A DNA stretch of 64,000 bases. Origin: Phascolomyces articulosus. Lineage: Eukaryota > Mucoromycota > Mucoromycetes > Mucorales > Lichtheimiaceae. The position numbers and the translations under genes are program-made. The DNA is taken from positions 1,302,001 to 1,366,000 of the forward strand of contig JAIXMP010000002.1 in assembly GCA_025677815.1 (NCBI GenBank), given 5' to 3'. This document shows positions 1,282 to 34,400 of the stretch, one piece after another (within the stretch, counting starts at the first letter, position 1; each line of letters begins with the position of its first letter). The notes below the pieces were generated by a model. The model was not told the DNA's origin. It did not search any database and worked only from the letters and a program-made list of their open reading frames with translations.

Positions 1282-4200
1282 ATGGAAACAAATACATCGT
1301 CAGCAACAACTACAACATCCACACCTTCATCCGGCAATAATGATAAAAAAGGTGGGTGGTTACACACATTTTTCATTTGCATAATTTTCTATCTAGAATA
1401 GCAGGACTGATATAGCTATTTGTATATAGTGCGTAAACCTTCGTCCCTTCATAATTCCAGTTCACGAAGATCCCTTGTCAATGTCTTTTCTTCTTCATCG
1501 TCATCACGTCATTCTATAACACATACATTAAAACCTCATAAATCGTCCCCTTCTTTATCCCGTACATTATCTTTGGGAGGTAAATCCCATGTCACCAAGT
1601 TATATAATACAGGTGCTATTGCTCCATCGTGTTATTTACCAAGTCATCAACAAATTGCAGTTCAAATTACTAGTCAACCTACACAAACATTTTTAGCAGC
1701 TCAACAACACCAACAACAATTACAACAAAAAAAGAACCAAACTCATCAGTTACAAAAGAAAAAATCCCACTATTCTACAAAACAACAACTTTTGCAGGCG
1801 AGTCATAATAGTTTATCATTGGCGCGTGATGAATCTATCGGCGGAGTATCATCATTGGATAATAAGGCACGCGACAGATCAACGTTTAAAGGGGTCTTGG
1901 ATAAAGTCGTAGGTGGTTTCAATGGTACACACCCTTCTTTTTTTTTCCCAGTGTGATTTTCTTTTTTAATTTTTGAATCTAATGAAATTGACCATAGATT
2001 TGTTGTCAAGTAACAATGGACAAGGGATCTCCAGTAGTAGCAGTACAAGTGATACCAGCAGTTTAAAAAACTTGGATATTTCATCACCTTATAATACTCG
2101 CCATTTGACACATGTTGGATTTGATGCACATACAGGAGAGTTTACTGGGTTGCCAGGTGATTGGAATATTTTATTGAAACATAGTGGTATTACTCGAACA
2201 GAACAGGAGCAAAATCCTCAGGTAACTTTAATTTGTTTGTTTGTTTGAGTGAGAAGAGGGGATTTGGAAGTAGTATCTATGTTATAAATGGTAAAGGGGA
2301 GGAAGGATGTAGAGGAGAGGGGTAGCAAAGTAAAGAGGAGGATGAAAAAAAAGCGAGAAAGAGAGGAGGATTATTCTAGACGTATAGAGTATTGACTTAA
2401 CTTATCTGAATTTTCCCAAACAAAAAAAATAAAATAAAAATAGGCTGTCATTAAAGCTATTGAATTTTATCAAGAATCCCAAGGAAGAGACGAAGAAGCT
2501 GTATGGCAAAAGATACCTAATGGTACTATTTCATCTGCCATGACCACATCCAATAAATCAAAATTACATATCGATTTCAATCATGGAATTGGGTCGATTG
2601 CAAAACGTTCTTCTCGTCGTCCCCTTTCTAGTATTATAAGTTCGGATGATACATCTTCATTAAAGAGAGATGAATCATTTAGAAAGAGTATTGTAAGTTA
2701 TATCATTTATTTTTTTTTGTTATCAATAAAATAAGTTGTTGGGATGAGGATTCGAATACTCATACTTGTTGATTTTTTTATCTTGATTTTAGGCCACCCT
2801 TCATAATGATATATCAAGTATTCATGGTAAGGGAAAAAAGCATAAAAAAGAAAGTTAAACAGTTTAACTCATGGCACAAACTAAAACATAATAACAGGTT
2901 CTACCTATGAACCAAGCAGCAAAAGTCGTCCACAAAGTTGTGTGGATCCACCAACATTACATCGACATTCCATTCGACAGTCCCGACCTATTTCCAAGAA
3001 TTTGGACATTGGCATCAATAACAATAATAATAATAATAGCACAGTAAATTCAGTCAATGTGAAATCGGAGGATAAACCATCCACTACTACGACAACTACA
3101 GCAGCAACTACAGCAGTAAGAACATCTTCAGCCAATGGTAAAACTACCACCACACCTGTTGCAGCAGCAAAACGACGTATACCAAAACAAACCAATACGG
3201 AAGAAGTGGATGATTTAATGTGTAGATTACGTGAAGTATGTACAAGTGCAGATCCAACAGAATTATATCAAGACATGGTCAAGATTGGCCAAGGGTAAGA
3301 TTATTATTTTTCCTTTGGCACCAAAAAAAAAAAGAGGATATGGTTCTAAATTCAGATGGGTGTTTTTATACATAGTGCCTCGGGTGGTGTATTTACTGCT
3401 CATCGTGCTGGTAAAAAAGAAGTCCCTGTAGCTATCAAACAAATGAATTTGGATCAACAACCCAAAAAGGAACTTATTATCAATGAAATCATGGTCATGA
3501 AACAATCTATGCATCCCAATATTGTGAATTACATGGATTCCTACCTTTGGAAAGGAGATCTTTGGGTTGTCATGGAATATATGGAAGGTGGTAGTTTGAC
3601 GGATGTGGTCACTTGTAATATGATGACAGAAGGTCAAATTGCTGCCGTGTGTCAAGAAGTATTAAAAGGTTTACATCATTTACATATGAATGGTGTTATT
3701 CATCGAGATATCAAGAGTGATAATATTTTATTGGATCTTGAAGGCAATATCAAATTAAGTACGTGTCTATTATAAAATAAGGATCTTATTTTATGTAACA
3801 TAAAAAACATTTATCATCTAACTTTTTGTTGTTTTAGCTGATTTCGGATTCTGTGCTCAATTGAATGAAGGGCAATCGAAACGAACCACCATGGTCGGAA
3901 CACCTTATTGGGTATGTATATAAAATTACATTTCATCCTATCAAGATATTTGAATAAAATTCAACAACAATAATAATAATAATAATAATTTTTTCCTTTA
4001 AAAAATAGATGGCACCCGAAGTCGTGACACGTAAAGAATATGGACCACAAGTAGATATTTGGTCACTTGGTATCATGGCCATCGAAATGGTAGAAGGAGA
4101 ACCTCCTTATTTGAACGAAAACCCACTTCGTGCTTTATATTTGATTGCTACCAATGGTACACCTCAATTACAAAATCCTGAATCCTTGAGTGAAACATTC

Positions 4201-6182: not shown

Positions 6183-7391
6183 ATGGTGAAATTTTCACAA
6201 AAAAAGCGTGCACTTAAACGAATTCATTCAACAATCAGAACATTAGAATTTCGTAAAGCATCTATGTTGACTGGATCTCGAGAATATTATTACACTCAAG
6301 GAGAAATCGACGAACTGATGCAACTCGTTAAAGGAATCGAGAGTTATCGATATCTCAACCCACGTCGAAGCATTCCTCAGCTTACAGAATACATGTCTTT
6401 TTTCTTTTCGTGGAATAATACTGAATTTCGGCGTATAGTACGTATGAAGAAAGAGTCTTTCAAATTGCTGGTTAAAAAGATTGCAAAGCACGACGTGTTT
6501 AAGCTTAAAGGCCGTGGACGTAAGCAAAGACCCGTGTGGCTTCAGCTAGCCTGTACCCTGGAACGGTTAGCTCACGATGGAAGTGGCCGATCAGTGCATA
6601 GCATTGCACGGCAGTGGGGTATCGCAACTGGCTCGGTCAGTTTATACATTGGACGGGTCATTACAGCACTCAACGATCTTGCCCCTCAATACATCAAATG
6701 GCCAACTGCAACTGAAAGGCAGCAAATAGCAGCATCAATCATAGAAACACATAGGTTTCCTTCCTGTGTAGGGTTTATTGACGGCACTCATGTGATTCTG
6801 ACACAAAAACCAAAAAAGCAAGGAGAGGTGTATTTCAACCGAAAGCAACGCTATTCAATGAATGTACAAGCCATTTGTGATCACAGGAGGGTGATTCGAC
6901 ACATACAAGTTGGATTACCTGGTTGTTTCAGTGACTCATCTGCTCATAAAATGTCTGAAGTTTACAAGTTCCCTTTGGATTATTTCTCTGAAAATGAGTA
7001 TATCCTTGGCGATTCTGGTTACGCACTTTCAGAACGTTTATTAACACCATACAAAGAACCAGCACTTCGAAACAATGACGACAACAAGGAATTCAACGAA
7101 TTGCACTCTTCTGCAAGAGTCGCAATCGAAAATACGTTTGGAATTTGGAAAGGAAGATGGCGCTATCTTAAAGGTATTGCACTACAATTACGAAATGACA
7201 AAGAATTCATTTTTTTGAATCATATTGTAAGAGCTACTGCAGTGCTTCACAACTTCCTTCTCCTTAACGATGACGATTGGGACCTCGCGAACGCTGGGAT
7301 CGACCAAGAAGAAGTAGACTGTAGTGATTTTGAGACAGTCGATGTCAATGCATGGCGTGAATCCATCAAAGTAATTGTTTTACAAGAATAA
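6183..7391 (+). CDS. PIF/Harbinger DDE transposase
   Basis: Catalyses cut-and-paste transposition of its host element. It is a single-exon frame of 402 residues, within the normal size range. An N-terminal basic region is followed by an HTH-like segment (about 115-165, with SIARQWGIATGSVSLYIGRV). The DDE_Tnp_4 nuclease core follows: first Asp in GFIDGTH (D200), second Asp in GDSGYALSERLLTPY (D277), and Glu in RVAIENTFGIWKGRWRYL (E316). All three acidic positions are present, so the enzyme looks catalytically competent. The acidic C-terminus ends 47 bp from the stop of the convergent partner gene. The start is the first ATG after a T-rich leader. Confidence 0.93.
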   Translation: MVKFSQKKRALKRIHSTIRTLEFRKASMLTGSREYYYTQGEIDELMQLVKGIESYRYLNPRRSIPQLTEYMSFFFSWNNTEFRRIVRMKKESFKLLVKKIAKHDVFKLKGRGRKQRPVWLQLACTLERLAHDGSGRSVHSIARQWGIATGSVSLYIGRVITALNDLAPQYIKWPTATERQQIAASIIETHRFPSCVGFIDGTHVILTQKPKKQGEVYFNRKQRYSMNVQAICDHRRVIRHIQVGLPGCFSDSSAHKMSEVYKFPLDYFSENEYILGDSGYALSERLLTPYKEPALRNNDDNKEFNELHSSARVAIENTFGIWKGRWRYLKGIALQLRNDKEFIFLNHIVRATAVLHNFLLLNDDDWDLANAGIDQEEVDCSDFETVDVNAWRESIKVIVLQE

Positions 7392-17350: not shown

Positions 17351-20300
17351 ATGATATTAACAAAGGCATTATTAGCTTTCTTTGCGGCTGCTTCCACTGT
17401 TACAGCTGCTGTTGTTCCATCATCCGCTGGAGCATCGGAAAAGCCAAATATCTTATTTATTTTTACGGATGATCAAGACGTGCGCATGGATTCCCTTTCT
17501 TATATGCCTAATGTACAAAAGTATCTTGTTAACCAAGGAACAGTTTATAAGAATCATTATGCTACCATTGCAGTATGCTGCCCAAGTCGTGTCAGTCTTT
17601 TGCGTGGTCAATACTCGCATAATACAAAGTAATTAATTAATAATATTTAAGAGTGAAAAGTTAAAAGAAACCAAGGAAACACAAAGATTAATATGAAATC
17701 ATTTCAATTTATCAGCATTACAGACGTAAGTCCACCCCATGGAGGTTATGAGAAATTCAATCGTCTTGGATTAGGCGATGACTATTTGCCATTGTGGTTG
17801 AAGAAGGCTGGCTATTCCAATTATTATATTGGCAAATTGATGAACGAGTACACTGTCAGTAATTATAATAGTCCTAAACCAGCTGGGTAAGTTTGTGTGC
17901 GAATATCTTATTTGCAGCATTCCTATTAAAGTTCATATTTTACTAACGATATCTTCTCTCTGTGTTTGTCATGGTGGGAAACAGCTTTGATTACCAAGGT
18001 AATAAAATATTCTTAAACACCAAAATAAAAACATAATCAAAGAATTCATTTATTTATTGATAATACTTCAATTTATATAGATCAACTTGTGGATCCTTAT
18101 ACCTATACCTACAACACTGCTGTATTTTCACGTGATGGTCAGCCTCCTGTGTTTTATCACAACACGTACCAAACTGATGTTATTCATACCAAAACCTTGG
18201 CTGCATTAAAGGCACAACGTGATAATGATAATCCATTCTTCTTATGGGGTAAATATTACTGATTTTATTTCTATCATCGGATATAATAGAAAAAAAAAAG
18301 AAAAAAAAAACTTATAGAAATTGTCAAATTCTTTTTAATAGTCGCTCCTATGGCACCTCATGGTCAATTCAAATTTGAAGAAGGAGGTTTGGAGAATATT
18401 TTCAGTGAACCACCCATCTCTGCTGCTCGTCATGCACATTTGTTTGAAGATGTTAAAAGTATACTACATTGCTATTCTTTTTCTTCTATTCAAATTTTTG
18501 TAGTATCTCTATGACTAACCAGTAATATATATATTTATTATAATTGTTACTAGTTCCCCGTCGACCCAATTTTAATCCTGTCAATCAAACCAAGACTGCA
18601 TCCTACTGGAAGTTTTTGGATCAATTGACTGAAACAGAAGTAGATGAACTTGATGAAACCTATCGTCGTCGATTACGTGCTCTTCAAGCCGTAGATGATA
18701 TGGTTGGTGCACTTTTCGAAGAACTTGAAGCCCAGGGAAAACTTGACAATACATATATTGTTTATAGTGCAGATAATGGGTAAGGATAATAATACACTTT
18801 ATGCATGTCTAATTGCGGCGCAGAAGTCTTTATAGTGCCCATTTTTTTCCCTAATCCATAAAAAAACTAGTTACCATTTGGGTCACCATAGAGCTTATGC
18901 AGGAAAAACCACTAATATCGAAGAAGATATCAAGTATGTTTGTTGTATTTTATCTTATGTATATATAATAGTATGGCTAACTACTTTTTGTTTTATATTG
19001 TTTCGTTTTACTTATATTGTTTCTTTATACAATTGTTGTTATTAGCGTACCTCTTATTGTCCGTGGTCCTGGTGTTGGTAAAGGCCAAGTAAGCGATATT
19101 GTCAGCGCACATCATGATCTAGCTCCAACGTTACTTGCATTAGCTAAAGGTGATGAATTTGTACCCGAATTTGTTGATGGTGGCGTTATTCCTTGGACTG
19201 AAGAATTGAAAAACCATCCAAAGCCAGCTTCAGTAGAAGCCTTTGCTGTAGAATTTTGGTGGGAGCAACTCTTTAACGAGTAAGTGTACATACCTATCCC
19301 AATGTTTTTTATTAATATTTATGCGTCATTCAACAAGTATAATATTCCCTTTATTCGGTCTAAAAATAATTATGATATAATCAAAAGATATAAGCCCCAT
19401 TTGAATGGTCCTCCTGGTGCTAACACTTACAAGACACTTCGAGTCATTTCCGAAAATTATAACCGTAAGTACTCATCTGGATTATTATGAAATTATGCAG
19501 TCTATCACCATCATATAATACCAGTAATTGGTTTATGGTACTCTGACATCCATTGTTAATAATATTATTGGATTGTATATTTATTTTGATTTTCATTTAT
19601 TTTATAGTTAAGTATGCTGTCTGGTGTACCGGTGAACATGAATTATTTGATTTAAAGGAAGATCCTTATGAATTACAAGATATTTACGGATCTGACAAAA
19701 TCAACATTCAACTCATTGACCGATTAGATGCTTTATTAAGCGTCTTGCAAACTTGCAGTGGCCCTACATGTCGTGATCCATGGCGTGTCATACATCCTGA
19801 TAATGAAAATATCAAAACACTTACTGATGCTCTTGATCACAAGGTAAAAATAAATTATTTACTTGTATATATATTTAATTGTTCGCAAAATTCTCTAACA
19901 AAAAAAAATACACTGTTATCTTTAGTATGATGCCTTATATCGACGATTCCGCAAAGTTTCATTCAAGGAATGTCTTTCCTATTTTGCCGCTGAAAATGAA
20001 GAGCCTAACGATCTTTTACTCACTAATGATATCCAACAACAATTATTTACTGTCCCTCCAGCATCTCCCTATTTCAAGCAACAACAACAACAGCAGCAAG
20101 CTCCCTTTGTTCAAAGGAAATCTGAAACATGCCCACATCATTTAGTTGAACATGAGAGTGATGACCAACAAGAACAACCTATCCGAGTCAGTCGGACTGA
20201 TGCTGTTCGTCTTTTCAATTTGATCCCACAACCTGAGGAAGTAGGGCATGCTGTACCTTCTGAAGAAGAGTTAGAAACCCTTGCTCGACCTGTTCCACAA

Positions 20301-22199: not shown

Positions 22200-22900
22200 A
22201 TATACTTGCGTAATATGTGATTTTTCCAATCGCTTTAGACTCCCATCGGGAGTCAATACTTCAGTAAGATGATTGTATATAATACCTTGTGGAGTCGCAG
22301 CGTTGATGGTGGCCAAACTTGAATGGTCGAATTGTTTAGATCCAAACTAGAATGAGATTAATGGAAGTCTATGCTGCAACACTTTATTAAATTACTTTAC
22401 AAATCAAGATATTTCTTATATCTAAATAAAGAAATAACAATGATATGAGTAAGCTAGTAAACGATTATAAAGTAAACACAATGACACCCCTTTTTAATCC
22501 GACTCCCAATAAATTATTAAATGTATAATAACTTACCATATAAATTGTAAGGTCTTGGCCAGAAGAAATATCGTGATATATAAAAAAAGTGATGTCGTAT
22601 TAGTATAAAATTATATGTAATAGAAGAATATAATGAACAAAGATTTAATGCTTACCACGTAAGAATAAGGAATGCCTCCTGCCGATGGCCACCCCCCATA
22701 ACTCATCAACTTTTGACCATACTTGTACTGAGCAACTACAAGGCTTTTTTTTTACAACAGAAAACCTTGCAGGAACTCCAAGCAAATGGTCGTTGATGAA
22801 GAATGGGAGGAACCATCCCAGGGCACCTAGGAGATCGTTGTCGATGGCAATGGGACTATAAAAATAAAGAAACAGTTCGCCATAACATATTATATATATA
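22200..22900 (-). pseudogene. Unknown gene relic, left copy (arm L)
   Basis: Not assigned to a family. A 200-bp exon-like block at 22855-22656 has an acceptor TAG and donor GTAAGC. It encodes DNDLLGALGWFLPFFIND followed by HLLGVPARFSVV, but a run of nine T (plus strand, near 22745) shifts the frame. The mirrored copy at 30052-30250 has eight A and reads through as KKSLVVAQYKYGQKL and SYGGWPSAGGIPYSYV. Further exon-like pieces lie downstream: 22570-22545 (TLQFI), then about 22350-22200 with a GSKQFDHSSLATINAATPQ reading or an alternative frame LDLNNSTIQVWPPSTL. The homopolymer slip makes this copy non-functional as read. Confidence 0.5.
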
Positions 22901-23991
22901 TATGCATTAAAGTTTAACATTGAATTCCAACGCTACTCACAAAAGAGAAATAGTAGTAATTACGTTTCATGTGTGTGCTTGCGTGTGTGAAAGAAGAAGA
23001 TTTGATCAAGAAAAAAAAAAGAAAAAGAAAAAATATTCACTCCTTTTAAAGTTTTTTTTAGACCCAATCTTATTACTGGTTCTTTGTTGTCTAAAAACAT
23101 AATATCAACTCATTCTGTAACTTACTACTTTTATTTTTTCCAATAGCAACTTCCTTAAAACATGAAATGACTCTTTAATTTTAGTTTTTCTGTATTAAAT
23201 TTAATTTTAGCATCATAAGAAATAATAAACCCGAATAGTCTGGTGAATACTTGAAAACTGCAAGTTCATCAGGAATGACTTCATTTTAATAGAATACCTT
23301 ATGCTATTTACAATCAATTGTGCGTATACGTACAATGACATTGATATGATACAGCTACTATTTTTATTATATTTTACTATGTTAATGGAATAATATAGTG
23401 ATCTTTATTTTTCTACCTTTCATATACAAATCACAAGAAAGAAGTTGCATAAAAAAAGTATTTCATTTAACAATAACGAGTGAAAACCATAATCTAGGTA
23501 TACGTATCATGGTTTATTTTACCAGAAAAAACCTAATTTAACCTATGTTGTCAGGAATATTGTATTTTTTGATGAAAGAAAAAAAATAGTTGACCACTTT
23601 TCATTTTTGTGATCTAAATTCTGGAAGCAATTAATTGAGTTCATAGTCAATAATGTTATGTAGTTTATATCTTCAATGCATACACTAAGTCTTCAGTGGG
23701 GGGTTCATGTCACTGTCTTTATTATGTACTATATATAGTATCTGACTATTTTGTTTTATTCTTCTTATTTATATTGATATCAACAAAACAAGAATCGGCT
23801 ACTTCATTAAAAGAATGGCTTTCCTGGACAACCAAAATATTGAATGCTTGCACTAAGGGAAGGAAACTTGTTAAATATTGTTCATTCTGGTAATTTTGAT
23901 AAAATTGATCCAAACAGATGACAATTTACTACGTACGCCCATAACAAGTTACAAATACATAAGCTAGATTTAACAAGTTTCTTTCCCGTAG
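22366..23991 (+). repeat. Inverted duplication, left arm
   Basis: About 1.63 kb matching 28782-30572 in inverted orientation, with many substitutions and small indels. Matching landmarks include the unknown-gene exon, the TAGACCCAATCTTATT block near 23060, a GCATCATAAGAAATAATAAA block near 23210, the ACTATATATAGTATCTGACC-like block near 23730, and the inverted-terminus element at 23853-23991. The outer limit is where similarity ends near 22366. The inner limit coincides with the end of that element. Confidence 0.85.
23853..23991. mobile_element. MITE-like element, left copy (139 bp)
   Basis: Both ends carry an inverted terminus of about 24 bp. The left end reads CTA, two bases, then GGAAGGAAACTTGTTAAAT. 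The right end is its near complement, ATTTAACAAGTTTC then TTTCCCGTAG. The near-identical copy 28782-28919 is inverted. No coding capacity, so it is probably a non-autonomous element. Confidence 0.65.
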
Positions 23992-25909
23992 CGTTATGTT
24001 TGCTCATCTTCTTTACTTTTGATTTTCATTATTCTTTTATATAGACCAAAGCATCACAACTTTTTAAATAGCATTATACCATAATTATATATCATATTAT
24101 TCGATCACTTACTTTGACGATATGCACTATTTTGCTAAATATATATCACGTTTTCCATCTATTATTATTACTTTTTTTTATATTCACTGCGTGCAAATTT
24201 TCTTATATCAACTTTCCAAAAAAGTACAATATTGGGATTTATATCTTCTTCACAACCATTCGAATTAAAAATATTCTTTTTTCTTCCAGGTAAATAAATT
24301 TTCCTGACTCATTTATGATAACTTGTCAATGAAAAGAAACCCGATATACAAAATTTAGAGCTTTTTTACGTATTCCTATGAATTTTTTCAAGCTTATGCT
24401 TCCGTAGTTTTTTTTTAATGTCATGAAAAAGAAACTGTTGCGATGAAGAGAGTAATAATAAACATTCGCTTAAACTTACTGACTATAATATAATTATAGA
24501 AATAATCTGTAAATACTACTATAGTGAAGCGTTCTATATGTGGTAAAGAACCTTTTGTATAGAGTAAAATAATTGATAATGATATCAATAAAAGTTGTAT
24601 GAAATGATCAATTTATGGACCAAATAATAAAATAAATAAAGATAGGTTGTGTGGGAGTTCTTATTTTCAGGAATTATACGTCTGAAACCACACGAGAAAT
24701 AGTCTTGTTATAATGAAAGAATAGTGAATGTTATATTATCTCACTTATTCAAAAGACAAATAGTTTGAAGTAAAGGATAAGTTTAAGATATTTTATTGAG
24801 AAAATAAAGTAAAGTACTGAAAACTGGGAAATAAAGAACTGAGGGTTAGGAACTCAGGAGTAAAGAACTAAAGAACTAAAGAAATCGAAATTAGTCTTCT
24901 ATTTATACTATTTGCTTTTGCAATGGTTTGCAAAAAGCAAATGCAAATGTTATCAAAAGCAATTACAATTGTTACAAAAGCAAATGTAACATGTGGATAA
25001 GTTTCATCCAATAAGAATGCTTTATGTTAATTTATAATATATGGATGGTACGAGGACGTGTCAAAGTATGGACCAGGTCAATCAATATAAAGCCTGTATA
25101 GCAACAAAGATAAACCACAACTCGAGAGACCAATCATGGATGACTTGATAAAAATAGTACTACCTTATTTTCATTGAAGTAATTAGAAATAATAAAGAAA
25201 GACTTGGCAAAAGAAGTTCTATTTGGTGGAGGATGGAATCTAGTGGAAAGATTTATCATATCACCAGACCAGAAAAGCTGTTGTTTATTATAGAGTGTTG
25301 TCAAGATCTATCATGTTTAAATGAATTATGCGCATTATGCTTATTTTCCGCTATTGTGGATACTGTGAGAAAGAAACAGCATTCCTAATATTTGGGTCTT
25401 TTTTTTTCCTATTTCTATGATGTAATAATACCATCATTATATAATTACAAGATCAAATAATAAACCAAAGCTATACATGGTAAAACTTGTTGAGGCATGA
25501 TATGAGGAATACGTATATCATATGGAACATGAGGTCTAGAATAGATCAACTTCATTTTGTATATAGCAGAAATAACTTAAAATACATAAAAAAATATGAA
25601 TATGATAATTTAGGTAGACCTCTGTTAAACTTGATAATTTTTTGGGTTGATTTCATATCATCTTGAACAACATAGAGAGAGCTTGAAGGAGATAAAATCG
25701 AAGATAACGAAACAGCATACTATATGCTAATTTCACATACCTTCAAATAATATGTTTGTGCTTGTTATTGATCAAAGGTACTACAAATTTATTGGTAAAT
25801 ATAGAACGAAGATAAAAATAATGAAAATATAAAGAAAGAAGAGATTTTGTTCTATTTAGGTTTCCTAACAATAGACCAATTATAAAAAAAAAGAAAAAAG
25901 AAAAATTTT
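23992..25909. other. Fanzor 3' flank; possible guide-RNA region, no protein gene
   Basis: This 1.9 kb follows the Fanzor stop (minus strand). No ORF is recognised. In TnpB/Fanzor loci the guide RNA is typically transcribed from the 3' end of the ORF and its flank, so if one exists it should lie at the 25.9-kb end. A repeat cluster sits at 24.83-24.99 kb (separate entry). Confidence 0.4.
24830..24990. repeat. Short repeat and hairpin cluster
   Basis: Three copies of a TAAAGAACTA-like word (24866-24886 region) are followed by inverted TTTGCTTTTGCAA / TTGCAAAAAGCAAA (24911-24941). The word AAAAGCAAATG is then iterated, and the hairpin GTTACA-AAAGCAAA-TGTAAC ends at 24990. Confidence 0.6.
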
Positions 25910-28360
25910 CTAAGGTTGAGCTTGTTGGGGTTGTCGAGTAAATTCAATTGGTCGTTCGTTATCTTGATTCTGTGCATGGAAGCAATATTTTATATTTCTT
26001 GCTGCGTTCACGTCCCTGTTCCATATAGTACCGCAATTATCACAACGTTTTAATCTGAAAATACTAAAACCCTGTGTCCCGTCACGATTCCTTTGTGGAT
26101 AAATGACCATAAGGTTATTTCGAGGATTATCTGTAGGTGGCTGGTTGTTATCATCACGATGGCACATATGAGAACATTCCTTGGATGTTCTTATCTCGCT
26201 TGTAGGAACAACTGTATATAATTGCCGTACTTTTTTCTTGAAACCTTCTACAGGTACACTTCGATTTCCTCGCATAGCATGGAAAAACTTGGCCGACCCA
26301 TACGCAATAATCACTTGATCTCTCGTTACTTGATCTGGTAAATGATCACATAGACGCCTTGCTAATCTATGTAACGCTTTCTGTTTCCACCTATATGTTG
26401 TCCATTTGAGGGATTTTTCAGTGTCGGCATGGAAACCCAATAATGGTTGCTGAACCAGGAGAGCCGTTTTTATATGATTACAAAAAGTATCGATATCAGC
26501 AGTACGGTGTCTTGTAATTGATTGTTCATATTGGATTAATTTAGGATATACTTCTCTATAATACCTTCTATAGTCATCAGCTTTGTTGTGAAAGGCCAGT
26601 TCATGGTACTCGCTTGCTTTTAAGTTGATAATCACTTCTTCATCATCTTCATGCCCGACACACCTATTATTCGCTACAAGTAGACTACAAATTCCTGGAT
26701 CTCCGCCAAGTACGACTGCATCTGGAGGCAATTGAAACTCTTCTGGAGTTGGATAAAAGGGACTTGGTGCTCCTGGTCTTCTGCATTGCACGCTTACTGA
26801 AACACCGTCTGTTATTATACGACCATCAAATCGGCGATTACCTTGTAAACCATGCAACAGATGGAAATTGAACCATCTGCCCCACCAAAGATCACGATCT
26901 GGACGGCTAAGGAAAGCTTGAAGGTTATTGGCATTTTGGAGATCTGGTGACAATTGTTGATAAGAATTAAGACCGTCAAACATGGCCGCAATATCAAGAA
27001 CAATATTCAATGGTGTAAAACTATGTTGCGGAAGAATACTCTATAGCCGGTTCACATGACGAGGTTGAATAAAAACATTTTCATTAAATATACCATTCGT
27101 AATTTCATCGAGTGTTTGATTATTAATGCTGGCGATATGTTGTAATGATTGAGCTGATAACCGTCGATGCAAGAAATTATTTCTTGCGTTTGGATCAAAC
27201 TGAGTATTATCTCGAATAGCATTTCGCATTTCCTTTTCTAGTACATTTCTTGTTTTTCTTGGTATCATATGTTCCGTGTGCCATTCGTGTATTAATCGGT
27301 TAATTTGCCCAGAGTACCACTTATTGGTTGGACGATCTCTTCTTTCAGTAACAGGTTATAATAATGTGGTATTCTCCAAGTATTTCAACATTGTAACATG
27401 CATCAACCAGAAATCTTGTATGTTTTCTTTTACAGTATTATTGGTAAGTGGTAGCGGATGCGGGTTGATCATGTTTTGAATATCAGTATAAATCGCTCAT
27501 AATGCATTTCGAGATTGGTTATCGTTCACGTTATCAAAATATGTAGTAAATCCATTTGGAAGCAATCCCATCAATGTAGAAATATCTTGCATAACTGGAG
27601 CGATTTCATCAGCTGTTTCTATATCACCTTCATCGTCTTCAATAACAAGGTTCTGCCAAAATGTGTCAATCATTGCTCTGGCACTGGATAAAATAATTTG
27701 AAAAGTCGTTGGTAGATCAAACAATGGAACAACTTCTGCATGGATTCTGCTGTAGGCGTATCGTATCATTCTTTGCTTCAAATGAATCCAAATATTGTTG
27801 GTACTTGTCGCTATTCCCCCAGTCACAGCAGATTCGATTAAATTATGAATTTGTGATCTGCATGTCCATTGAAGGTTCCTTGGTCGAATTCCGCGATAGA
27901 TATCAAATGTGTCTCGTATATCAGAATCGTTGATTGGGCAAGGTTGATGCGTACTGAAAATATAAGTCACAGCGAGGAAACAATCACGAAGGAAATTATG
28001 ATTTAATTGAGGTAATGTACCAAACAAATCGAACATACGGATGGCATGAAGATACGCCAATTTCATTGCTTCAAAACGAATGGTAGAAATACGTGACACC
28101 ATATCATTTACCATGATACCAAAGTTTGGGAGTACGATTGGATCACCAGGATCGGTATTTGTAAAATTCTCCAACCCAGTTTTAATACAGTATATCTGAC
28201 TAGGAACATCCGCAGCAGCTTCAGCACCTGCACCTTGTGTTGCTCTACCCTGTTCTGCTTGAGTATAGAGACATCCAGGGAGTTGATCTTGTATATTATG
28301 GGGAATCAATTGACCAGTAGTGTTGTTGATAACACCGCAATGGCAGCCAGTTGTAGACAT
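25910..28360 (-). pseudogene. Fanzor (eukaryotic TnpB-like RuvC nuclease), three in-frame stops
   Basis: One frame of 817 codons on the minus strand, broken only by TGA (27499-27497, codon 288), TAA (27358-27356, codon 335) and TAG (27043-27041, codon 440). There is no frameshift, and protein-like sequence continues across each stop. Fanzor proteins are RNA-guided DNA endonucleases carried by eukaryotic mobile elements. The N-terminal half has the helical pattern with RISTIRFEAMKLAYLHAIR. RuvC-I is VVLGGDPGICSLLVA (Asp at codon 554). The canonical RuvC-II Glu seems absent (IIAYGSAKFF), but TSEIRTSKECSHMC gives an alternative Glu at codon 722, as reported for many Fanzor1 proteins. A zinc ribbon (CSHMC and CDNC) leads into RuvC-III NRDVNAARNI (Asp at codon 783). 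Start chosen at the first ATG after upstream stops. Introns hiding the stops cannot be excluded. Alternatively only the C-terminal 366-residue part (27010-25910) is translated. Confidence 0.85.
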
Positions 28361-28781
28361 GAGTAAGGAGAAACTACTAATGATTGTACGTGTTAGAACT
28401 GCCGTTATTCACTTTGTAATGGATCAGAATGGTTGTATATGAATAATACATGCATATACATGTATAAATATATACTTACTTAAAGCGTTGTGGAAGAAAT
28501 GTGAAACGTAAGTTTTTTTTTGAGTAAGAGTAGGAAAGTAAGAGAAAGAGATGTTTATTCTCCTCACGATCTTAAATACTGTTTTTCTAAAAGACCTCAA
28601 AGACACAAACGGCACCCATACAAAAAATAATATCTGTACTATTATTAGTAGTAAAAGAAATTTATACAGAGAATTATATAAAAATATTTTTATATTAAAC
28701 AATCATCAAAAGCCCTCATTATAAGTAAATCTATCTTTCAAAATGAGTATTCTATTTTTTTTTATTGAATTAAATAATCAC
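28361..28781. other. Fanzor 5' flank
   Basis: Upstream of the Fanzor start. A GTAAGTAT donor-like site on the minus strand begins at 28479, so a 5' leader intron is possible. No other gene is seen. Confidence 0.4.
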
Positions 28782-28919
28782 TACGGGAAAGAAACTTGTT
28801 AAATCTAGCTTATGTATTTGGAACTTGTCATAGGCGTACGTAGTAAAATATCATCTGTTTGGATCAATTTTATCAAAATTACCAGAATGAACAATATTTG
28901 ACAAGTTTCCTTCCTGTAG
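28782..28919. mobile_element. MITE-like element, right copy (138 bp)
   Basis: Ends read CTACGGGAAAGAAACTTGT on the left and ACAAGTTTCCTTCCTGTAG on the right, mutually inverted. It is the mirror image of the 23853-23991 copy and marks the inner boundary of the right duplication arm. Confidence 0.65.
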
Positions 28920-29819
28920 AGCAAACACTCAATATTGTGGTTGTCCAGAAAAAAATTTTTTTTTAATAAAGTAGCTGATTCTTGTTTTGTTGCTGATATC
29001 AATATAAATAAGAACAATGAAACAAAATGGTCAGATACTATATATAGTACATAATAAGACATTGACATGAACACCCCACCCCCACTGAAGAATTAGTGTA
29101 TGTATTGAAGATCTAAACTACACATCATTAGTGACTATGAATTCGATTAATCCTCTCCAGAACTTAAACCACAAAAATGAAAAGTAGTCAACTATTTTTT
29201 TTAAAAAAATTAGGGATAATAGAGACAGGTAATTTTAGTTTTTTTTTCTTTCATCAAAAAATATACTACTCCTGACAACATATAGGTCAAATCAGGTTTT
29301 TTTCTGGTAAATTTACATAGGTTATGATTTTGTTAAATGAAATACTTTTTTTTATGCAGCCTCTTTCTTGTGATTTTGTATATGAAAGAAAGAAAAAGAA
29401 AGATCATTGTATTATTCCATTAGCATAGTAAAATATAATAAAAATAGCAGCTATCATATCATTGTCATGATTGTTCGTATACGCACAATGAATTGTAAAT
29501 AGCATAAAGAGGTATTCTATTAAAATGAAGTCATTCCTGATGAACTTGCATTTTTTCAAGTTTTTTTTTTTTTCATGTATTCATCGGACTATTCGGGTTT
29601 ATTATTTCTTATGGTGCTAAAATTAAATTTAATACAGGAAAACAAAGAATCATTTCTTGTTTTGAGGAAGTTGTATTGGGAAAAATAAAAAGTAGTCGGT
29701 TACAGAAAGAATTGATATTATGTTTATAGACAACAAAGAATCAGCAATAAGATTGGGTCCAAAAAAAACAACTATAAAAGGAGTGAATATTATTTCTTTT
29801 TTTTTTCTCATCATATCTT

Positions 29820-29849
29820 TCACACACAAGCACAAGCACTCTCACAAGT

Positions 29850-29890
<41 letters not shown>

Positions 29891-29942
29891 AACACAAGCA
29901 CACACACAAGCACACACACACAAGCACAAGCACACACGCATG
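29820..29942. repeat. CT/CA microsatellite in right arm
   Basis: Runs of CACAAGCA, then CT repeats, then CA repeats interrupted by AAGC. The left arm holds only a short GTGTGTGCTTGCGTGTGTG at the matching site (about 22970-22990). Confidence 0.85.
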
Positions 29943-30051
29943 AAGTGTAATTACTACTATTTCTCTTTTGTGTGTAGCGTTGGAATTCAATGTTAAACTT
30001 TAATGTATATATATCTAATATGTTATGACGAACTGTTTCTTTATTTTATAG

Positions 30052-30400
30052 TTCCGTTGTCTTCGACAACGATCTCCTAGGTGCCCTAGGATGGTTCCTC
30101 CCATTCTTCATCAACGACCATTTGCTTGGAGTTCCTGCAAGGTTTTCTGTTGTAAAAAAAAGCCTTGTAGTTGCTCAGTACAAGTATGGTCAAAAGTTGA
30201 TGAGTTATGGGGGGTGGCCATCGGCAGGAGGCATTCCTTATTCTTACGTGGTAAGCATTAAATCTTTGTTTATTATATACATCAAATACCAAACAATAAT
30301 ACTAATACGAAATCATTTTTTTTTTACATGTCAAGATATTTTTTCTAGCCAGGGCCTTACAATTTGCTTATATGGTAAGTTATTATACATTTCATAATTT
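30052..30400 (+). pseudogene. Unknown gene relic, right copy (arm R)
   Basis: Exon-like block 30052-30250 with a TAG acceptor and GTAAGC donor. It stays open for 66 codons: DNDLLGALGWFLPFFIND, HLLGVPARFSVV, KKSLVVAQYKYGQKL, then SYGGWPSAGGIPYSYV. A second small exon-like piece at about 30349-30375 mirrors the left copy. Later exons seen in the left relic are missing, because the duplication ends near 30572. No family recognised; truncated, so probably non-functional. Confidence 0.5.
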
Positions 30401-30603
30401 ATTGAGAATCGGATCAAAGAGGAGTGTCATTGTGGTTACTTTATAATCGTTTACTAACTTACTCGTATCATTGTTGTTATTTCTTTATTTAGATATAAAC
30501 ATTTTGTTTGGATTTGGCTTTAGATTAGAAATATCTTGATTTGTAAAAATAATTTAATAAAATGTCGCAGTAGAAATATATACCTACTGAAAAAAAGTAA
30601 AGA

Positions 30604-31437: not shown

Positions 31438-34400
31438 ATGATGCGTATGAATTTAGTATTATCTATATTCGTGATGGTTCTTATTTATTATGGGCCGATA
31501 GTTATTGCCGTGGATGATACTATTAGACCAGATTACGCAACAGCTACAAGTCCTGGCAACAACAAACCATTAGCAAAACCAAACATAATTTTTATATTAG
31601 TTGATGATCAAGATGCCCGAATGGATTCACTTTCATATATGCCCAACGTTCAAAAATATCTTATAGAACAAGGAACTACTTTTAAAAACCATTATGCGAC
31701 AGTTGCTTTATGCTGTCCAAGTCGTGTGAGTATGTTACGCGGACAGTATGCACATAACACACGGTAATGAATCATCAGCATTAGAATTTGTTTCTTTCTC
31801 TCTCCAACACTTTTAAGCATATATATATATATATATATATCTTTACAACCAATGAAGAAAAGATAATAATAATTAAAATATGACAATTCCTTACTGTAGA
31901 ATAACCGATACAAAACCACCTTATGGTGGATACACTTTGTATAATCTCCGTGGATTGGGCAATGATTACTTGCCATTGTGGATGAAAAAGGTAACATACA
32001 TAGGATAAACTTTCTTTTTGTATTTTAGGATATATTCACCAAATCAATAACAATCAATGATAATTTTTTTATTTTTGTCTGTATTTCTTATTTCTATTAA
32101 AAAAGGCGGGATACACAAACCATTATATTGGAAAATTAATGAATGACCATGCTATATATAATTATGCCACAAAACCTGCAGGGTATATTTTTAGAGAGAA
32201 AGAAAAAACTAATTTAGAATTGATTTACTAATATTATTATTTTTCGTATGATAAACGATGACACTATATATATTATAGATTTGATTATGGAGGTATTATA
32301 ATATTACTAAAATCCTTACTGCTATATAAATGTGGAATAATATACTTATATATACACAAAACATGGTTGTATTTTCTTTTAATTCATCGAAAAGATTATC
32401 TCCTGGATCCATATTCATACGATGCAACAACCCCTGTATTTTCACGAGATGGAGAACTTCCAGTATACTATGTCGATACCCATCAAACGGATGCCATTCA
32501 TACAAAAACTTTATCTTCCTTAAAATCATTTCGTGGCAACAATAAACCTTTCTTTTTAACAAGTAATCAAAGAAAATAGATCTTATCGAAAAATCTTTCA
32601 TATATTTAAAGTACATCTTATCTTTTCAAGAAGAATTTATTATTAATGAAAAGAGGTACATAAAATATATATCTAGTTGCTCCTGCAGCTCCTCATGCTC
32701 ATATTGAATACGGACTTCAAGATCGAATTGATATTCTTCGATGTGAACCACCCATTCCTGCCTCACGTCATTCAAATCTATTTCCAGATGCGAAAAGTAT
32801 GTTAGTTTTTTTAATTAAATTGTTAAACATTATTATGAAAAAAATAATACCTTGTGTATAAATACAAAACTACCTTTTTTCTTTTTTAGTTCCTCGTCGA
32901 CCTCACTTTAATCCAGCGGACAATAGTAGAACAGCATCTTACTGGAAGAAAATGAATCGATTGAATGACACTGAAGTGGAGCAGTTGGATGCAAATCATC
33001 GTCGTCGGATACAGGCTCTTCAATCTGTTGATGATATGGTTGGATCTCTATTTCAAGAACTGGAAGCTCAAGGAAAACTGGATAATACATATGTCGTCTA
33101 TAGTTCTGATAATGGGTAAAAATATACTATTAAATATTTACAAGCATACACGCCAAAACTCATTTTATTTATTATACAATTTTCAAATGTTCTTTAGTTA
33201 TCATTTAGGTCAACATAGAGCATATGCAGGCAAAATGATGAATATCGAAGAGGATATCAAGTAAGTAATATTTGTTGTTTATTATTTATTTACTAGTTTA
33301 TGAATAAATATTGATACATGAAGATCATTGATATGTATATAGTGTTCCACTTATTGTTCGTGGACCAGGTGTTGACCGAGGTAAGACAAGTGATGTTGTA
33401 GGTGCATTTCATGATTTTGCACCTACATTTCTTGCATTGGCTCATGGAGATGAGCATGTTCCTTCTTGGGTAGATGGAGGTGTACTCCCTTGGACTGAAA
33501 AACTGAAGCAACATGATAAACCTGCAGCCAAAGAATCTTTTGCAGTAGAGTATTGGGCAGGTGAGGCGAGATATGAGTAAGTCGTCACCAACAAAAGAAT
33601 TATTTTAAATTTTCTTGTCTTACTAAAACAGTAGATTAAATAATATACAGAGGTGATAAATTCTGGCATAATGCTCCTGGTCCCAATACATATAAAACAC
33701 TTCGTCTTATTTCTGAAGAGTATAATAGTATGTTATAAGTTTAAAGTACTGGGTAGTAGGAGTCGAGATGGCAAGTATACTATTTATCAGTATTTTTGTG
33801 TTAATAACAAACATATTATCTTGACATTAATGATAGTTAAGTATACCGTGTGGTGTACAGGTGAACATGAATTATACGATATGAAGAATGATCCATACGA
33901 GTTACAAGATATTTTCGAATCTGAAGCACAGGAGAATAGTCGATTTATTGCTCGATTGGATGTCTTGTTAAGTGTCTTGAAAGAATGTAGCGGCCCCACT
34001 TGTCGAGATCCATGGCGTATTCTTCATCCCAATGATGATTACGTAAAGACACTATATACTGCTCTTGATGCCAAGGTATAAAATCATTTATCAATGAAAC
34101 CCATCCATGTAATTTAATTAACAGCGGTAGATTTTTTTTCAATTGTTTCTATTATCTCTAGTACGACGCTTTTTATCAAAACTATCCCAAAGTTTCCTTT
34201 AAGCTATGCCTACCCTTTTACTCAGAACTCAATGAAATTACGTTTCTTAAACAAGAGGAAATTGTGACCGATATACTTCATATGGGAAGCGGGGATGGTT
34301 TATTAGACAAAGTCAAAGACACACTTAAAGCAGATAACCTCTTCAAATGTCCATCAAGGAAATTAATGGAAGAGAAGAATACAAAATGTGTACCCTCTGA

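Follow-up and report, generated by a model that had tools for sequence, protein, structure and literature searches.

We analyzed a 64-kb stretch of the Phascolomyces articulosus genome (Mucorales; 47.4 Mb in 110 contigs), C23:1302001-1366000, hereafter the window. On its minus strand we identified a locus of the Fanzor family, whose members cut DNA under RNA guidance beside a short motif (PMC10432273 and PMC11423790, in part). The locus is very probably a Fanzor1-type gene that, freed of constraint, is decaying by drift in P. articulosus, and from which no working nuclease would be made. Its coordinates and those of its parts and neighbors are collected in Table 1.

The span 28360-25910 is translated as one continuous frame of 817 codons (816 residues and the final stop). 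Stops inside it occur at codons 288, 335 and 440 and nowhere else, and there is no frame break, in agreement with the initial annotation. As a chance control, 2271 overlapping 817-codon stretches were sampled elsewhere in the window in six frames; each contains at least 16 stops (median 49), compared with the three internal stops of the Fanzor frame. Within the same span, the other minus-strand frames contain 39 and 75 stops, and the plus-strand frames 32, 41 and 47. The frame corresponds to one protein: a protein of Circinella umbellata (P0003, BDC45DRAFT_553085; 36% identity) aligns over 98% of it, and the alignment with an environmental protein, P0006, starts in the N-terminal part and continues to the C-terminus.

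Three proteins were matched by the frame: P0003, the environmental protein P0004 (55% of the frame covered), and P0002 (69% covered), a model of a sibling copy on contig C25 of the same genome. A search started from P0004 extended the set to 21 proteins, P0004 included, from environmental sequences, Lipomyces, Phlyctochytrium and Amoeboaphelidium. The long N-terminal half is kept in P0006 and mostly also in P0005. Thirteen proteins (P0001, P0003-P0008, P0012-P0015, P0017 and P0020) form alignment A1; P0002, a chimeric model, was excluded from A1 and A2 and included in A3.

Assignment of the locus to the Fanzor family, and to the Fanzor1 type, is supported by motifs, profile and predicted fold. 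The DPG triplet at RuvC-I, a Fanzor criterion (PMC10711439, in part), is found at residues 554-556, and the rearranged RuvC-II glutamate, E722, precedes C729 by six residues. The ribbon cysteines lie in CSHMC (729-733) and CDNC (773-776). The longer published motif, D-X(125,275)-[TS][TS]-X-X-C4 zinc finger-X(5,50)-RD (PMC3627910, in part), is matched by D554, 170 residues, T725 S726, C729/C733/C773/C776, five residues, and R782 D783, with the first cysteine pair being CxxxC instead of the CxxC of the motif. The RuvC-I GGDPGICSLL, the CxxxC/CxxC ribbon and the RuvC-III NRDVNAARNI noted earlier are all present in the translation. The Pfam domain PF07282 (Cas12f1-like_TNB) was detected at 4.5e-8 and 33.6 bits, above its cut-off of 26.3; matches of frame pieces to DUF4924, PLA2_B and Peptidase_MA_2 fall under their own cut-offs and were set aside.

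As a single sequence, the C-terminal piece matched no Fanzor among solved structures (best match LaTranC, E 0.055); a profile was needed. The profile built from 13 relatives gave the Fanzor1 of Spizellomyces punctatus (PDB 8gkh) as its first match among solved structures, at 1.8e-10. In the Foldseek comparison of predicted folds, the first seven rows are occupied by SpuFz, PpFz and GtFz. On profile and fold comparisons, the locus is closest to Fanzor1 rather than Fanzor2. These results bear out the Fanzor/TnpB assignment of the initial annotation.

Using a six-frame search of the genome (6 of 6 candidates scored; all numbers are lower bounds), we found three further loci of the same lineage, each broken or truncated, and no intact copy. 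The sibling on C25 retains residues 1-562, with one stop (codon 543) and the catalytic half lost at a breakpoint near codon 562. The C49 locus retains residues 185-377 with 12 stops, and the C45 locus retains residues 496-725 in two pieces with stops. A marginal match on C27 (E 0.018) belongs to another Fanzor lineage. The C23 and C25 copies have 3.9 kb in common (26675-30582).

Over 540 codons, the changes separating the C23 and C25 copies number 27 (synonymous), 58 (replacement) and 3 (nonsense); a drift expectation that takes in the observed transition bias gives 25.1, 59.6 and 3.2. The count ends at codon 540 and so excludes the C25 stop at codon 543; through codon 550 there are four nonsense differences. 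Differences are spread over the three codon positions as 27, 29 and 34 (545 codons), and the rates of change in the frame (89/1605, 5.5%) and in the flank (26/400) are not significantly different (P 0.47). The simplest reading of this drift-like divergence is that the gene was free of constraint by roughly the time it was duplicated. With three internal stops in place of an intact coding frame, the locus is most likely a pseudogene of the Fanzor family and not a working member. Of the earlier proposal of a recently inactivated Fanzor, the inactivation is supported by the drift-like divergence from the sibling; its dating goes no further than the sibling difference of about 5.5%.

Several observations weigh against this reading. 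The unweighted dN/dS between the two copies is 0.60 (0.40-1.00), the frame is slightly less diverged than its flank, and indels between the copies are few, with a single 12-base, frame-keeping difference before the breakpoint. At the 56 residues that differ, the Circinella protein sides with C23 in 10 cases and with C25 in 13, leaving 33 undecided. The structural overlays are loose: in the first seven Foldseek rows, rmsd is 5.9-12.6 and the query-based TM 0.39-0.53, and for the predicted fold of P0006 rmsd is 8.9-15.0.

The gene could be intact and its stops mistakes of sequencing or assembly, as the frame is clean apart from them and has no frameshift. However, nonsense changes are as many as drift predicts, replacement changes show no deficit, and the other three lineage loci found are also broken. 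We judge this very unlikely, the least credible of the alternatives considered.

The public gene models of both copies avoid the stops, apparently through introns, and could thus speak for a living gene in which the stops are spliced out or read through. In P0025 (419 aa), residues 1-38 come from another frame (27109-27222), and the Fanzor frame is joined directly past the third stop, from residue 441; in P0002 (C25, locus L005), the Fanzor N-terminal fragment runs into a dienelactone hydrolase domain. Both are probably artefacts of automatic prediction stepping around stops, and such models could mislead Fanzor surveys. Against splicing, the C25 sibling has coding sequence in the stretches around these positions, so that their removal would cost protein, and the Circinella protein aligns at codons 335 and 440 (with a gap at codon 288). 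Against readthrough, all three stop types are present and one reassigned codon cannot explain them. The drift-like divergence of the copies argues against either form of a living gene, which we hold to be highly improbable.

The C-terminal RuvC-TNB piece might still be expressed as a short protein with a role of its own, such as DNA binding; the initial annotation had offered, as one of two inferences, that a C-terminal 366-residue piece is still made. The piece spans 376 codons without a stop, retains catalytic-type residues and is covered by P0025. However, if half of the divergence is placed on the C23 branch, 1.25 stops are expected in these codons and the probability of none is about 0.29, so that the stop-free stretch needs no selection. 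Moreover, relatives such as P0006 have 440 N-terminal residues that are absent from the piece, and the model covering it starts in another frame and joins right past the third stop, like an automatic prediction. An independent role for this piece therefore appears very unlikely, and the earlier suggestion was not upheld. In an extended version, a distinct Fanzor1 branch with a long N-terminal half, represented in Circinella and on environmental contigs and by more distant members in Lipomyces and Phlyctochytrium, would have died out in Phascolomyces, with the severed RuvC-TNB half expressed and kept for a non-cutting role, for example binding or silencing related elements; we consider this joint claim highly improbable.

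Under the preferred reading of a decaying Fanzor1 gene, the intact ancestor would have been an RNA-guided DNA endonuclease of a mobile element, its function being that of the family. A guided nuclease benefits the mobile element that carries it. The gene would have been copied at least once, together with the upstream copy of a dispersed repeat; the C23 copy would then have acquired its three stops, and the C25 copy would have lost its catalytic half and acquired the stop at codon 543. We infer that the ancestor cut DNA under RNA guidance, that the gene spread within a mobile element, and that it lost constraint either ahead of its duplication or close to it. The locus adds a diverged Mucorales Fanzor1 lineage of which all four loci detected in one genome are broken, a small data point on Fanzor loss.

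Table 1. Fanzor1-type pseudogene and neighboring repeats in the window
Feature	Position	Strand	Remarks
Fanzor1-type pseudogene, 816-residue frame with three internal stops	25910..28360	-	
Internal stop codon 288 (TGA)	27497..27499	-	Sense codon in C25 sibling
Internal stop codon 335 (TAA)	27356..27358	-	Sense codon in C25 sibling
Internal stop codon 440 (TAG)	27041..27043	-	Sense codon in C25 sibling
Stop-free C-terminal stretch, 376 codons, RuvC + TNB	25913..27040	-	366-residue piece begins inside at 27010
RuvC-I GGDPGICSLL, residues 552-561, catalytic-type D554 within DPG	26678..26707	-	D554 invariant, 13/13 rows of A1
Shifted RuvC-II glutamate E722, then CxxxC	26162..26197	-	E722 and C729 nearly invariant in alignment
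Second zinc-ribbon pair C773/C776 and RuvC-III NRDVNAARNI	25991..26044	-	Motifs and PF07282
Upstream neighbor, truncated dispersed-repeat copy	28774..30582	-	Common with C25 sibling locus up to 30582
Downstream neighbor, same dispersed repeat as upstream, second copy in inverted orientation	22370..24520	+	
Another dispersed repeat, ~520 bases, between pseudogene and left repeat copy	24522..25041		
Third dispersed repeat, ~418 bases	25164..25581		Ends ~330 bases beyond pseudogene 3' end

The upstream repeat is cut at ~28774, the start of the 5' flank of the gene, in both the C23 and C25 copies, and the homology of the two loci stops at its outer end; this hints that the gene and the repeat moved together. 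A stretch on another contig (C1:891794-891987) resembles, at 80%, some 209 bases of the 5' flank; the surrounding 9 kb revealed no Fanzor frame. With 40 of 76 candidates scored, at least 75 pieces across the genome match the dispersed repeat, and among the pieces listed only the two in the window and the one on C25 adjoin a found locus of the Fanzor lineage. The repeat boundaries were checked on 20 of 20 loci, with further checks on 16 and 12 loci. The repeat (window copies and loci L012-L030) has a sharp outer end near TACTGTAAC and reaches ~2.5 kb in fuller copies; a 66-residue exon-like reading within it gave no hit in Pfam at E 0.01.

The inverted arms 22370-23991/28781-30570 were considered as Fanzor terminal inverted repeats and rejected, as both are copies of the dispersed repeat. 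The 418-base repeat, which forms an inverted pair on C28, was likewise rejected as transposon ends: the next 40 bases outside are mirrored too, so that the pair resembles part of a larger palindrome more than it does clear transposon ends. Dispersed repeats lie on both sides of the gene, but neither a transposase nor terminal repeats nor a target-site duplication could be tied to it. The guide (omega) RNA of Fanzor sits at the end of the element (PMC10711439, in part); the 3' flank (25582-25960) has no more predicted structure than its shuffles (z -0.66), and Rfam gave no match over the window at the gathering score. Elsewhere in the window, ~18 kb from the Fanzor locus, an open frame of 402 residues (6183-7388, plus strand) contains a transposase domain, DDE_Tnp_4 (1e-33). 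Two related, intron-rich-looking genes of the same direction (17440-19858 and 31575-34091) flank the repeat-rich Fanzor region; readings in them such as PNILFIFTDDQD and CCPSR suggest that they may encode sulfatases.

Other Fanzor-like loci are present in the genome. A different lineage on C33 (~524465-524656; L034:1384-2334, minus strand) has a 316-residue open frame with DPG, a shifted glutamate before CxxC, and RDD (PF07282 at 25.2 bits, just below the cut-off of 26.3), and may be an intact gene with introns. On C27 (L052, ~2423-3791, plus strand), another Fanzor-like gene lies in exon-like pieces, with DPG in one frame and QRDRNAA in another (PF07282, 27.6 bits). A short remnant at C45:1634757-1634825 (L032) contains ESYTSKTC..C in 39 open residues (PF07282, 33.3 bits).

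Among its relatives, the frame has the DPG and the shifted glutamate in common with Circinella P0003, which differs in its length (705 residues), in some absent stretches and in a second pair short of one cysteine (CTID); P0003 could likewise be a decayed gene or a poor gene model. The environmental proteins P0005 (747 residues) and P0006 (850 residues) are long relatives with all motifs, P0006 having a predicted Fanzor1-like fold; they differ in being predicted open and are 27 and 23% identical to the frame. Among the open-licence papers searched, none was found to pair Fanzor with Mucoromycota or Circinella, the matches to Fanzor and pseudogene are off subject by title, and the Phascolomyces papers concern, by title, taxonomy, compost and food. 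Fanzor1 has already been reported in Mucorales, with 10 families in Mucor, 4 in Rhizopus and 3 in Phycomyces, some residing in MuDr-like elements with terminal inverted repeats (PMC3627910, in part). No such ends were tied to our locus. In PpFz1 of Parasitella parasitica, also of the Mucorales, a RuvC insertion, the FRI domain, binds cyclophilin (PMC11423790, in part). Fanzor2 (Mimivirus, PDB 9b0l) and TnpB have the RuvC/TNB fold class in common with the frame. The top match by both profile and fold is SpuFz1, with which the TDG-SV block, the shifted glutamate, the ribbon and the RD align; it differs in having ~16% identity over the aligned fold and ~600 residues in the structure, compared with the 816-residue frame and its three stops.
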